Origin: Mycolicibacterium poriferae
GTDB lineage: Bacteria; Actinomycetota; Actinomycetes; Mycobacteriales; Mycobacteriaceae
Length of the DNA: 64,000 nucleotides
Assembly (NCBI RefSeq): GCF_010728325.1
Contig: NZ_AP022570.1
Coordinates: 5,648,831 to 5,712,830 of the forward strand
Reading direction: 5' to 3'
Under the pieces are notes generated by a model, which was not told where the DNA came from, made no database searches, and was given only the letters and a program-made list of their open reading frames with translations. How positions within the stretch are numbered: position 1 is the stretch's first letter; the number at the start of each line of letters is the position of its first letter. Positions 9,747-45,239 of the stretch are shown piece after piece. A program made the position numbers and the translations under genes.

Positions 9747-10604
9747 TCAGAGACCGAGCTTGAGCGAGGCTCCGGCGTCGACGAACAGCTGCTGGCCGGT
9801 CACGTACCGGGATTCGTCGGAGGCGAGGTAGACCACGGCGTGGGAGATGTCCGATGCGTCGATGTAGGGCACGGGCATGGCCTGCATGAACGGGAAGGTG
9901 AGTTCGGCGTCTTCGCGGGTCGGCTCCGGCAGGTCGGGACGGAACGTCTTGTACATCGCCGAGTTGTGCAGCATGTCGGTGTCGACGTTGGTGGGGTGCA
10001 CAGCGTTGATCCGGATCCGACTCGGCCCCAGCGTGAGTGCCAGCGACTTCGTGTAATCGCGAATCATCTTCTTCGCCAGCCCGTATCCGTCGCCGCCGGC
10101 TCCCTGCATGCCGCCCTGTCCGTTGATGCCGGTCTGCGGGACCAGTCCCGCCACCGATCCGGTCACGACGATCGCACCGCCCGGCTTCAGGTGCGGCAGT
10201 GCTACGTGTACCGAGTTCACCACACCGACGAAATCGACATCGAACGCATCGACGAAGCCCTGGACGGGAATGTCGTTGCCCAGCGGGCAGATACCCGCGT
10301 TGGCGACCACCACATCCAGGCCGCCCAGGTCGGCGACCGCGTCGTCGAGCACCCCCTTCAGACCCACCCGGTCACGGACGTCGACCTGGGCGGCAATCAC
10401 GCGCCGGCCGGACTTCTCGACGAGCCTGGCGGTCTCATCGAGATCGGCGGCCGTCGCCAGCGGGTAGGAGTTCGTGTCGATGTCCTCGCCGATGTCGACG
10501 ATGACGAGATCGGCCCCCTCGTCGGCCAAATGGACAGCATGGCTGCGGCCCTGGCCGCGCCCAGCCCCGGTGACGAAAGCGACCTTGCCAGTCATTCGAC
10601 CCAC
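9747..10604 (-). CDS. Mycofactocin-type SDR oxidoreductase
   Basis: 285 residues. The glycine motif is TGAGRGQGRSHAVHLA, followed by NAGI, a serine in GSVAG, and the catalytic pair YGLAK. The GQGRSHA motif and the insertion between NAD-binding elements are typical of the mycofactocin-coupled SDR subfamily, which uses non-exchangeable NAD. AGGAGG at 10616-10611 is best spaced for GTG 10604 (six bases); ATG 10595 is the alternative. The Zur box at 10624 lies just upstream, so this redox enzyme is probably induced on zinc starvation. Substrate unknown. Confidence 0.82.
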   Translation of the reverse strand: MGRMTGKVAFVTGAGRGQGRSHAVHLADEGADLVIVDIGEDIDTNSYPLATAADLDETARLVEKSGRRVIAAQVDVRDRVGLKGVLDDAVADLGGLDVVVANAGICPLGNDIPVQGFVDAFDVDFVGVVNSVHVALPHLKPGGAIVVTGSVAGLVPQTGINGQGGMQGAGGDGYGLAKKMIRDYTKSLALTLGPSRIRINAVHPTNVDTDMLHNSAMYKTFRPDLPEPTREDAELTFPFMQAMPVPYIDASDISHAVVYLASDESRYVTGQQLFVDAGASLKLGL

Positions 10605-10623
10605 GGACATCCTCCTCATTTAT

Positions 10624-10638
10624 TGAAAACGATTTTCG
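10624..10638. promoter_or_regulatory. Zur-type operator between the SDR gene and the Cys-rich gene
   Basis: TGAAAAC-G-ATTTTCG with flanking TTAT and ACAA. It fits the same 7-1-7 pattern as the other four sites. It lies 20 bases upstream of the SDR start and about 95 bases upstream of the divergent Cys-rich gene. Confidence 0.8.
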
Positions 10639-23581: not shown

Positions 23582-23596
23582 TGGAAATGGTTTTCG
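23582..23596. promoter_or_regulatory. Zur-type operator upstream of mrf
   Basis: TGGAAAT-G-GTTTTCG followed by TTAA, 26 bases before the mrf start. It has two more mismatches to the consensus than the best sites but the same spacing, and is the only AT-rich island in the gap after 23520. Confidence 0.75.
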
Positions 23597-23621
23597 TTAA
23601 GCGGCGATGTTGAGGGTGACG

Positions 23622-24818
23622 ATGAAGCGAACACCGGTGATCGTGGTGGCCGGCCAGGAGATGACCGACGACGTCTGCGAGACGCTGGCGCGGACGCCGG
23701 GCACGATCGTGGTCCGGCACCGCTTCGACGGCCACGTCGTGGTGCGCAGCGTGCGCATCGGCGACGATCTGCGACCCCACACCTCGGAATGGCCGCTGGA
23801 ACTGACGAACTGCTGCGTCGACTGCACGATCCGAGAAGACCTGCTGATCCTGTTGCGCCGCCTGCACCGGCGCGACGACGTGAAGCGCATCGTCGTCCAC
23901 CTGGCGCCCTGGCTGGAGCCCGAACCGGTGTGCTGGGCCATCAACAACGTCATCGTCCGGGTCGGACCGGGATACACAGATGGCCCGGCGGCCCGCGACG
24001 TCCGGATCGAAGCGGTGGTGAGCACCGTGCACACCGCCTCGTGGCTGACCCAGGCGCTGGACGACGAAGTGCTCGACGACGACCGGACCGTCGCTCAGGT
24101 CGTCGTCGGCCAGGCCGAGTTCGCCGATGTACTCGTGCTGTCCGCGACACACGACCGGACGTCGGCGGTTCTGCGCCGGCTGGCACCGCGATCGCAGCAC
24201 GTGGTGGGGCCGGCACTCCTGGAACCGGCGCTGGCGGCTCTGCAATGGACCGCCCGGCGCGGCCGCGAGCACAACCCCCACGAGGCATTGCTCGCCGGGC
24301 AACCGCCACTGGGCGCCGACGGAGACGTCGAGCTGGTGGAGTTCAACGCTGACCGGCCGTTCCACCCGTTGCGGCTTCATATCGCGATCGACGATCTGCT
24401 CGACGGCGTGGTGCGGGTGCGCGGACGGGCCTGGCTGGCCACCCAGCCCGACGCCGTGGTGTGGATCGAATCCGCCGGCGGGGGACTGAAAGTGGGCCAT
24501 GCCGGTGAATGGCTCGCGAGCTCAGCGGAGCATTCCGACGGATACGCCGACCCCGAGCGGGTGGCCCTGGCCGGTCTGCGGTGGGACGAGCGGTTCGGTG
24601 ACCGCCACATCTCCCTGACCGCGCTCGTCTGCGGCGCGGACCCGGGCGTGATCACCAACGCCCTCTCCGGGGCCCTGCTGACCGACGACGAGATGACGCG
24701 AGAACAGGATTGGGCCACCTACGACGACCCGTTCGGCGACTGGCACGAGGACCCATGCGACGACTTCGACGCCGCCGACGACGTCAACCAGCGGCATCAG
24801 GACGACGAAGGCCACTGA
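23622..24818 (+). CDS. mrf: Mrf, recruitment factor for the ribosome hibernation factor MPY (CobW-like without P-loop)
   Basis: 398 residues from ATG 23622 (GAGGGT upstream), equal to the recalled length of Rv0106/Mrf. CobW-like throughout, but the P-loop is lost (VAGQEMTDDV in place of GxxGxGKT) and CxCC is changed to NCCVDC (Cys 64, 65, 68). Mrf-like blocks are RIVVHLAPWLEPEPVCWAI, VEFNADRPFHPLRLH and DPFGDWHEDPC. It recruits MPY to 70S ribosomes with zinc-free proteins during zinc starvation. Its last 35 bases overlap the convergent WhiB-like gene. Confidence 0.85.
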   Translation: MKRTPVIVVAGQEMTDDVCETLARTPGTIVVRHRFDGHVVVRSVRIGDDLRPHTSEWPLELTNCCVDCTIREDLLILLRRLHRRDDVKRIVVHLAPWLEPEPVCWAINNVIVRVGPGYTDGPAARDVRIEAVVSTVHTASWLTQALDDEVLDDDRTVAQVVVGQAEFADVLVLSATHDRTSAVLRRLAPRSQHVVGPALLEPALAALQWTARRGREHNPHEALLAGQPPLGADGDVELVEFNADRPFHPLRLHIAIDDLLDGVVRVRGRAWLATQPDAVVWIESAGGGLKVGHAGEWLASSAEHSDGYADPERVALAGLRWDERFGDRHISLTALVCGADPGVITNALSGALLTDDEMTREQDWATYDDPFGDWHEDPCDDFDAADDVNQRHQDDEGH

Positions 24819-25083
24819 CCGCAGCATCAGGACGAAGGTCACCGACCGAGCCCATCCGCGCGCGCTCACGCGGGGTTGTGGATCCCCAGATGCCATGGCG
24901 CTCAGGATGTTCCAGTGCATGGGTCAAGCACTGCGGGCGTACCGCGCAGCGGTGGCAGATTCGCTTGACCTCATCCTCACGTGCGCGCCGCAGACTGCCC
25001 TGATACTGCTCGGAGGCGTAGAACAGGTCGGTGGGCAGGCCCCGGCACCGTGCGTGCCGTCGCCAGCCCCACCCGTCGGTCAC
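24784..25083 (-). CDS. WhiB-like [4Fe-4S] protein coupled to ribosomal protein L31B
   Basis: 99 residues from GTG 25083; its GTGA overlaps the rpmE2 stop, so it is translationally coupled. The four WhiB cysteines are at 13, 43, 46 and 52 (HARC, ICHRC, RPQC), followed by the [11 protein letters not shown] turn; these bind a [4Fe-4S] cluster in the family. A short disordered tail follows. Which of the known Whi classes it belongs to is unclear. Being second in a Zur-controlled operon with a zinc-free ribosomal protein suggests a regulator made only in zinc starvation. Confidence 0.85.
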
Positions 25084-25355
25084 CGCCCGTGCGCGCCCGA
25101 GCGCCGGTTTCCGTAGCGGCGGTTGAACTTCTCGACCTGGCCTGCGGCGTCGACGATCCGACGGCTTCCGGTCCAGAACGGGTGCGAATCAGCCGAGACC
25201 TCGACGACGACCAGGGGGTACTCCCGCACCCCCTCCGCGGTCTCCCATTCGATGGTCTTGTCGCTCGTCACGGTCGACCTGGTCAGGAACTTCGTGCCGG
25301 TGTTGGCGTCCTGAAACACGACGGGGTGGTAGTCGGGGTGAATTCCCGCCTTCAT
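25080..25355 (-). CDS. rpmE2: 50S ribosomal protein L31 type B (zinc-independent)
   Basis: 91 residues starting [16 protein letters not shown], with [13 protein letters not shown] and VEKFNRRYG. It has no CxxC zinc pairs, so it is the type B form that replaces zinc-binding L31 when zinc is short and frees zinc for other uses. The Zur box ends at 25396, about 27 bases upstream of the start. The WhiB-like gene overlaps its stop codon. The other alternative ribosomal proteins usually grouped with it are not in this window. Confidence 0.92.
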
Positions 25356-25381
25356 GAGCTGCCTCCGCGATCGAAACTATT

Positions 25382-25396
25382 TGAAAATCATTTCCA
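25382..25396. promoter_or_regulatory. Zur-type operator upstream of rpmE2-whiB
   Basis: TGAAAAT-C-ATTTCCA followed by TTAA: 7-1-7 palindrome with one mismatch, upstream of the L31B gene, a classic Zur target. It lies 50 bases before the divergent hydrolase gene, which might also be affected. Confidence 0.85.
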
Positions 25397-25445
25397 TTAA
25401 TACCGGCTCCGGCCACCCCAACGCAACCCCGCCTAAGGTGGCGTG

Positions 25446-26360
25446 ATGCGTCTGAAGTTGGGCCGGCCCGACCTGGCGGCTTACCGCGGCTTCTGCGACG
25501 TCCCCGCGGCGTCGAAGGCCACCGAGTTGTCCGTGACCTGGGCCGGGGTCACCACGCTGCTGATCGACGACGGTGTCTCAGCGGTACTCACCGACGGGTT
25601 CTTCAGCCGGCCCGGTCTTCTCACGGTGGCGACCTGTCCGTTGCGGTCCAGCAGACGGCGCATCGAGTCGGGTCTGGAGCGGCTGGGCGTCCAGCGCCTG
25701 GCCGCCGTGACGCCGGTGCACACCCACTACGACCACGCCATGGACTCCGCGGTGGTGGCTGATCTCACCGGCGCCCGCATCATCGGCGGATCCTCAGCCG
25801 CACAGATCGCCGCCGGCCACGGTCTGTATCGGGCCGACATCGTCACCCCCGGTGAGCCCGTCACCGCGGGCAACTACGACATCACGTTGATCGAAGGACA
25901 CCATTGCCCCCCGGATCGATTCCCGGGTGCCATCACCGCTCCCGTGGCCCCCTCCGCGCGGGCGTCGGCCTACCGATGCGGCGAAGCCTGGTCCACCATG
26001 GTCGCGCACCGCCCGACCGGCCGACGACTGCTGATCGTCGGCAGCGCCGGCTACCTGCCGGGGGCGCTGTCCGGGTACCGCGCGGACGTGGCCTATCTCG
26101 GCGTCGGGCAACTCGGCCTGCAACCGGCCGAATACCTCGTCGAATACTGGTCGCAGACCGTCCGCACGGTCGGCGCCCGCCGGGTGGTGCTGATCCACTG
26201 GGACGACTTCTTCCGTCCGCTCGACAAGCCCTTGCGCGCACTGCCTTTCGCCGCAGACGATCTCGACGCCACGATGGCGGTGCTGACCGGACTCGCCGAA
26301 CGCGACGGGGTGGCACTGCACCTGCCGACGCTGTGGCACCGCGCCGACCCATGGCGCTGA
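25446..26360 (+). CDS. MBL-fold metallo-hydrolase (Rv3577-like)
   Basis: 304 residues from ATG 25446 (GTG 25443 directly precedes it). The metallo-beta-lactamase motif is HTHYDHAMD near residue 97, with later histidines in EGHHCPPDR and a C-terminal VLIHWDDFFRPL. The active site should bind two metal ions; the substrate is not evident. The downstream arsB2 begins inside its last codons (10-base overlap), the same pair order as in M. tuberculosis. Confidence 0.82.
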   Translation: MRLKLGRPDLAAYRGFCDVPAASKATELSVTWAGVTTLLIDDGVSAVLTDGFFSRPGLLTVATCPLRSSRRRIESGLERLGVQRLAAVTPVHTHYDHAMDSAVVADLTGARIIGGSSAAQIAAGHGLYRADIVTPGEPVTAGNYDITLIEGHHCPPDRFPGAITAPVAPSARASAYRCGEAWSTMVAHRPTGRRLLIVGSAGYLPGALSGYRADVAYLGVGQLGLQPAEYLVEYWSQTVRTVGARRVVLIHWDDFFRPLDKPLRALPFAADDLDATMAVLTGLAERDGVALHLPTLWHRADPWR

Positions 26361-44965: not shown

Positions 44966-44999
44966 CCCGCCGGGGCGACCACGTCGCTCCCGTGGGGGT

Positions 45000-45180
45000 T
45001 ATGCTCCGTCTGCTGCGGTGAACGGGAACCCGGTGCAAGACCGGGGCGGCCCTCGCCACTGTGAACGGGAAGTCGGTGTCCTGCATGCCACTGCTCGCGC
45101 GCCGCGCGGGTGGGAAGGTGGACTCCGGCGTTTCGGACCTCCCCCGGGGAGATCCGTCGGACCCGTGAGCCAGGAGACCG
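45000..45180 (+). ncRNA. Cobalamin riboswitch upstream of cbiMNQO
   Basis: The conserved blocks appear in order: GGGAACCCGGTGCAAGACCG (45024-45043), GCCACTG (45055-45061), TGCCACTG (45086-45093), GGGAAGG (45112-45118) and the B12-box GAGCCAGGAGACC (45167-45179). When cobalamin binds, such elements usually shut off expression, which fits control of the cobalt transporter genes directly downstream. Confidence 0.9.
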
Positions 45181-45239
45181 ACCACAGCATCGATATCGAT
45201 GCCCACGAGGTGCTGGGCGGAAAGGCACATCCAACAGAA

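Follow-up and report, generated by a model that had tools for sequence, protein, structure and literature searches.

Zur is usually viewed as the whole zinc-starvation switch, with uptake, metallochaperones and zinc-free ribosomal proteins under its control. Published zinc- and Zur-dependent transcripts cover rpmE2 and its neighbours (PMC7174638, PMC4298942). In Mycobacterium smegmatis, rpmE2 (MSMEG_6070) belongs to the genes induced more than 100-fold in a zinc- and Zur-dependent manner, with a tabulated 1,233-fold increase under TPEN and an apparent 1,460-fold increase in the zur mutant (table row q value 1.00; PMC7174638). Zur regulons of other bacteria reach transcription factors: the accessible portions of a review list dksA, termed a zinc-independent transcription factor, in Pseudomonas and hrpX in Xanthomonas, with no occurrence of WhiB (PMC6103462). 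Conversely, a review of Wbl proteins mentions neither zinc nor Zur (PMC6282962). Excerpts from work on zinc-limited mycobacteria nevertheless report redox and Wbl gene shifts (PMC8866557, PMC8121289), including induction of whiB7 (MSMEG_1953) in M. smegmatis (PMC8866557) and a change of whiB6 in M. tuberculosis (PMC8121289). For WhiB3, the accessible text of a structural study gives F31, F32 and W76 as each required for binding to sigmaA4 and W15/W17 as redundant, while R38 and R42 form the invariant pair of a subclass-specific Arg-rich DNA motif (PMC10245118). Among the papers listed by full-text literature searches, with most subscription papers and preprints outside their scope, none was seen to describe a WhiB controlled by Zur.

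The locus considered here lies in a 64-kb stretch of the Mycolicibacterium poriferae genome, hereafter the window, and its features are as follows.

24784..25083, minus strand: whiB, 99 aa, predicted WhiB3-related Wbl protein, GTG start at 25083-25081 (PF02467)
25080..25355, minus strand: rpmE2, zinc-free type B ribosomal protein L31 (PF01197, 97.7 bits; NF002462, 127.5 bits)
25080..25083, minus strand: GTGA shared by the rpmE2 stop and the whiB start, read directly from the sequence
25382..25396, no strand given: Zur box TGAAAATCATTTCCA, intergenic between the divergent rpmE2-whiB pair and the MBL-fold gene
23607..24818, plus strand: MRF (MPY recruitment factor, CobW-like; NCBIfam NF047431 hiber_recruit, 556.4 bits, cut-off 375)
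25443..26360 (start 25443 or 25446), plus strand: MBL-fold gene, divergent from rpmE2, in the position of MSMEG_6071 (PF12706, 24.4 bits, below the cut-off of 27)

The order on the minus strand is box, rpmE2, whiB, with 26 bp between the box and the rpmE2 ATG. The rpmE2 gene terminates in TGA and shares four bases (GTGA) with the whiB start. The first-pass annotation of this DNA had described this overlap and had placed both genes behind an operator at 25382; the coordinates agree, and so does the box itself, which shows a single mismatch against the pattern TGAAAATCATTTTCA. The divergent MBL-fold gene shares this intergenic region. The rpmE2 product contains zero cysteine, against four in the second L31 of the M. 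poriferae genome. The whiB product matches the Pfam family Whib (PF02467) at 73 bits, for a cut-off of 23.6, and none of the NCBIfam models. Scanning positions 24700-25500 gave neither a sigma-70-like promoter nor a terminator match, with a scan that fits mycobacterial promoters poorly. At their 3' ends, whiB (minus strand) and MRF (plus strand) converge and overlap by 35 bp (24784-24818), an overlap that is also present in Mycobacterium sp. PO1 (L091).

Zur-like sites are strongly enriched in the window: allowing up to three mismatches, nine strand-matches at five sites were obtained where 0.16 were expected, and none of 100 shuffles reached nine. Across the whole M. poriferae genome, eight sites have at most two mismatches, while a reversed-pattern control gave none. 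One of the weaker sites in the window (23582-23596, three mismatches) lies 5' of the MRF coordinates. The window is a zinc island: besides the five sites it contains MRF, a heavy-metal P-type ATPase with DUF1490 and an ArsP-type permease with DUF1980, and inspection of the open reading frame lists by eye adds binding proteins of the ZnuA type, a further CobW-type GTPase and ABC components. The genome has ten places with a Whib domain, and only the rpmE2-linked whiB has a Zur box with at most two mismatches within 40 kb.

Three further features of this genome deserve mention. A Zur-like box at 10624-10638 lies directly 5' of a gene on the minus strand (9747-10619) assigned by eye to the SDR-type oxidoreductases. 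A cobalamin riboswitch (RF00174, 80.9 bits) at 44985-45200 is the sole Rfam match in the window at the gathering threshold. Elsewhere in the genome (L092:7707-9874, near G000:C1:116891), a Zur box lies between a second MRF (57% identity) and a divergent zinc-free L28-L33-S14-S18 operon that is devoid of whiB.

The protein encoded by whiB has the four cysteines (C13, C43, C46 and C52) and the G64-I65-W66-G67 turn that the first-pass annotation had listed, and an alignment of 23 members shows no change in any of the cysteines or at G64, W66 and G67, position 65 being I or V. Four cysteines are a general property of Wbl proteins. Their conservation would suit a protein that senses metal status, taking a [4Fe-4S] cluster at low zinc and being mis-metalated, hence switched off, when zinc returns, so as to feed back on Zur derepression; expression predicted only in zinc-poor cells would also fit. 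We regard such a sensor as improbable, given that the cysteines are common to Wbl proteins at large and that no zinc-specific feature was found in the sequence. A different role is suggested by Zur-controlled DksA2, which lacks the zinc-binding cysteines of DksA: by the same logic, WhiB might be a zinc-independent stand-in for a zinc-using factor associated with RNA polymerase. The accessible text on Pseudomonas Zur regulons, with dksA among their members (PMC6103462), offers a precedent, but the whiB product is a Cys4 protein rather than a cysteine-free paralogue, which makes this analogy very unlikely to hold.

Among proteins of solved structure, the closest by sequence is WhiB3 (8cyf, E-value 2.4e-14, and 8cwr), followed by a Streptomyces WhiB and WhiB1. 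An AlphaFold model of the window WhiB, of middling confidence (mean pLDDT 71), finds its best fold match in the WhiB3:sigmaA4 complex 8cwt (TM 0.71/0.92). The residues equivalent to W15/W17, F31, F32, R38, R42 and W76 of WhiB3 are W5/W7, F21, Y22, Q28, R32 and W66, respectively, so that the sigmaA4-binding positions (F31, F32, W76 and W17/W15) are all represented. All 23 aligned members have F21, W66 and W7; at position 22, F occurs in 19 and Y in four, and W5 is found in only seven. The arginine pair of the DNA motif is incomplete in the window WhiB: R32 is kept, as in 22 of the 23 members, and Q28 stands at the position of R38, which varies across the 23 (R in 15, K in four, Q in three and S in one). 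Immediately after the turn, most members read WGATTPxER and the window WGSTTPRER, where WhiB3 has WGGLSESER. No AT-hook (RGRP) was seen by eye in the 23 aligned members. Judged on these residues, the window WhiB is a WhiB3-related Wbl protein whose presumptive sigma-A contacts are retained; we do not call it WhiB3 because the R38 equivalent is Q28 and the post-turn motif differs. We predict that it docks onto sigma-A with altered DNA contacts, and the replacement of R38 by Q28 may render DNA binding weaker or different.

The same comparison bears on the idea that this gene is a WhiB3 duplicate, kept only to supply more of the usual WhiB3 activity, in redox and lipid control, during zinc starvation and having no regulon of its own. 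WhiB3 proteins are indeed the closest solved relatives, the sigma contacts and the R42 equivalent are conserved, and the best-scoring paralogue in M. poriferae (L003, 58.9 bits) looks WhiB3-like by eye. The retention of that paralogue in the same genome nonetheless counts against a mere duplicate, as do the family-specific motif after the turn and the non-conserved R38, which suggest changed DNA or partner contacts; we therefore consider this explanation unlikely.

To follow the gene across the genus, the window WhiB was searched against 198 Mycobacterium genomes, and 40 of the listed places were fetched along with the locus of Mycobacterium sp. PO1. Of these 41 fetched loci, 22 lie among zinc genes or behind Zur boxes. 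With the window added, a Zur box with at most two mismatches was found within 600 bp in 17 of the 23 loci labelled as zinc-associated (0.015 expected) versus none of the 19 others, a statistic that is not blind since the label was given after the neighbourhoods had been viewed. A profile built from the 23 Zur-linked WhiBs (22 loci plus the window) was then run on 396 Mycobacterium genomes, giving 66 places in 56 genomes at an E-value of 1e-28 or better, and 41 places in 40 genomes scored at least 116 bits. The latter consist of the 23 profile members (the PO1 genome being G576) and 18 places fetched on score alone. Every one of the 41 has a Zur box (up to three mismatches) within 1.6 kb upstream, including all 18 out-of-profile places, for which resampled sequence gave an expectation of 0.083. 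These results support the part of the first-pass interpretation that ties a transcription factor of the Fe-S type to the zinc-starvation regulon. The link, which might have been a peculiarity of this strain, recurs across 40 of the 396 genomes surveyed. The remaining 356 have no place of at least 116 bits, which implies that the WhiB function is dispensable there or carried out otherwise.

For comparison, we collected 21 lower-scoring loci: 13 of the 25 places below 116 bits in the genus search and eight from other genera of the family. A Zur box was present upstream in four (L152, at 113 bits, L158, L161 and, in another genus, L153) and was not found upstream in the other 17, including L159, which adjoins CtpC. 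Five further places among the 25, already part of the first set, had no Zur box. At L158 and L161, the lower-scoring whiB lies 5' of DUF1490-CtpC, behind a box with three mismatches. The 116-bit line is not an absolute divider of Zur-linked WhiBs, with boxes at four of the 21 loci below it and none at the CtpC neighbour L159.

The company that whiB keeps is more varied than the window would suggest. Its Zur-linked arrangements among the 41 loci are box-rpmE2-whiB (13 loci), box-MRF-rpmE2-whiB (seven), box-MRF-whiB (two), box-L28-L33-(S18)-whiB (seven), an unnamed gene between box and whiB (one, L066), and no recognised gene ahead of whiB behind the nearest box (11). The gene directly upstream of whiB is hence rpmE2 in 20 loci, MRF in two, L28-L33-(S18) in seven and unnamed in one, with none recognised in 11. 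Coupling to zinc-free L31, the headline of the first-pass annotation, therefore stands for the 20 loci with rpmE2 directly upstream and not for the others. An L31-specific partnership was dropped as the main reading on this ground and because whiB outlasts decayed ribosomal genes; a better description is a putative WhiB of the Zur regulon, frequently accompanied by zinc-free ribosomal genes. Where a recognised gene lies directly upstream (29 loci), the whiB start falls between -17 and +11 bp from the upstream stop, at -4 in 16 loci (a 4-bp overlap like the GTGA of the window) and at -1 in four, although starts were picked by rule and single spacing values may be off.

Several loci display remnants of ribosomal genes. 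At L075 (9782-10183) and L133, the initial 24 codons of zinc-free L28 open the WhiB reading frame, giving a naturally fused L28-WhiB immediately downstream of a Zur box. The L28 start persists as debris between box and whiB at L136, and a 22-residue piece of L31 is left in the same place at L141. Weaker traces are those of S14 in L087 (57 against a null maximum of 50), MRF in L152 (51 against 44) and L33 in L136 (44 against 42); the search for such traces in 16 loci found none in 10. As for alternative S14, no match above 50% identity was obtained in 12 of the 18 carriers tested, and 11 of these 12 fall inside one 12-row tree group and are thus not independent losses. Loci where the ribosomal genes are gone and the box and whiB are kept form a natural deletion series, in which the regulator can be viewed apart from the ribosomal component.

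Two aspects of the promoters stand apart. Several of them (L069, L081, L086, L134 and others) have two Zur boxes whose starts are separated by 55 bp, suggesting paired Zur dimers. At L071 (10369-10623), a gene for an 85-aa ANTAR-domain protein diverges from rpmE2-whiB at the Zur box and may encode a second regulator under the same operator.

Selection on whiB was estimated in 13 pairs: dN/dS lies between 0.095 and 0.275 in 12, and the thirteenth (L158/L161) gives 0.775 with very few changes. Because whiB and its box outlast decayed ribosomal genes and dN/dS is low, whiB looks kept for its own sake and not for a ribosomal neighbour. This bears on the view of whiB as a passenger, sitting in a zinc island by chance or by hitch-hiking and transcribed from its own zinc-independent promoter. 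Plasmids and phages often carry Wbl genes (relatives in 109 plasmid and 160 phage records, each below 60% identity), and an internal promoter inside rpmE2 is conceivable. Set against this are the Zur box found upstream at all 41 loci, whose partner genes differ, its presence in all 18 out-of-sample loci and the low dN/dS; a zinc-independent promoter of its own is also made less likely by the 11 loci in which no recognised gene separates whiB from the nearest box. Taken together, these observations leave a passenger highly improbable. As to a plasmid or phage origin, those records yielded only relatives below the identity just given.

In a tree of short WhiBs (86 columns, 78 rows), the Zur-link label changes six times, compared with 25.4 times after shuffling. 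At least two label changes are forced by starred branches, and 0% of the bootstrap trees have a single change. The Zur-linked WhiBs group strongly in these trees, which do not join them into one clade. Beyond the genus, a family search (301 genomes) returned, among the listed matches, six Mycobacterium places of at least 127.7 bits, the next one, from another genus, scoring 104.4. An order search at an E-value of 1e-29 retained six of 298 genomes and one of 76 genera. Of the 24 loci from other genera in the family search, one (L119, the same as L153; genome G216, on a short contig) has Zur boxes, 13 and 68 bp upstream. The spread of Zur-linked WhiB is mainly confined to one genus, Mycobacterium.

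A candidate WhiB target promoter 3' of whiB, in a clade with an ABC importer, was discarded: the conserved block (nine of 12 loci) is a cobalamin riboswitch and so no WhiB site, an assignment based on an Rfam RF00174 match in L078 and on alignment only for the other eight loci. In L078 the riboswitch (10194-10317) shares bases with the 3' end of whiB (9876-10229), and a Peripla_BP_2/FecCD/ABC/FhuF-type importer follows it.

The reading that we favour, and think probable, is that this gene encodes a Zur-repressed, sigma-A-binding Fe-S Wbl regulator of zinc starvation related to WhiB3. With zinc present, Zur would occupy the box and the operon would be silent; in its absence, Zur would be released and rpmE2 and whiB expressed together. 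Ribosomes finishing rpmE2 could re-initiate at the overlapping GTG of whiB, such coupled translation yielding WhiB along with L31. The Fe-S form of WhiB would then join sigma-A and direct a second tier of genes. More tentatively, and with slightly less than even confidence, we propose that it represents a further kind of Wbl that has escaped recognition, a WhiB of zinc starvation operating as a two-metal AND gate: made only at low zinc, when Zur is off, and active only if the cell can assemble an Fe-S cluster, it would direct RNA polymerase with sigma-A towards a second-tier programme, alongside the changes in translation brought about by zinc-free ribosomes and MRF. Such a regulator would have been recruited behind several Zur promoters and would outlive its ribosomal neighbours.

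If the favoured reading is true, a sigma-A-binding Fe-S regulator inside the Zur regulon would relay zinc status to global transcription under the control of iron and redox, and could help to explain secondary changes in zinc-limited mycobacteria. The recurrent pairing across many mycobacterial species suggests an undescribed layer of control on zinc depletion.

Each of the closest known systems shares part of this design. The M. smegmatis Zur regulon (MSMEG_6065-6071, in the order of the published tables) has the MRF, rpmE2 and MBL-protein genes (MSMEG_6069-6071), and the window resembles it down to the Zur box between rpmE2 and the MBL gene; unlike the window, where whiB is present, the main text of the corresponding paper has no occurrence of WhiB (PMC7174638). 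Regulators inside other Zur regulons, dksA/DksA2 of Pseudomonas and hrpX of Xanthomonas, are alike in being Zur-repressed transcription factors of zinc starvation, yet DksA2 is unrelated to the Cys4 Wbl protein encoded by whiB. WhiB7/WblC, the Wbl that answers ribosome stress, likewise connects a Wbl protein with a translation problem, whereas the window WhiB matches it less well in sequence and has a Zur box, and the 23 aligned members show no AT-hook by eye. The WhiB3 subclass (M. tuberculosis, PDB 8cwr/8cyf) is the best match in sequence and fold, with the Cys4 set, the G[VI]WG turn and equivalents of W17, F31, F32 (F or Y), W76 and R42 in common; the window WhiB differs from it in having WGSTTPRER in place of WGGLSESER, Q in place of R38 and a Zur box upstream.
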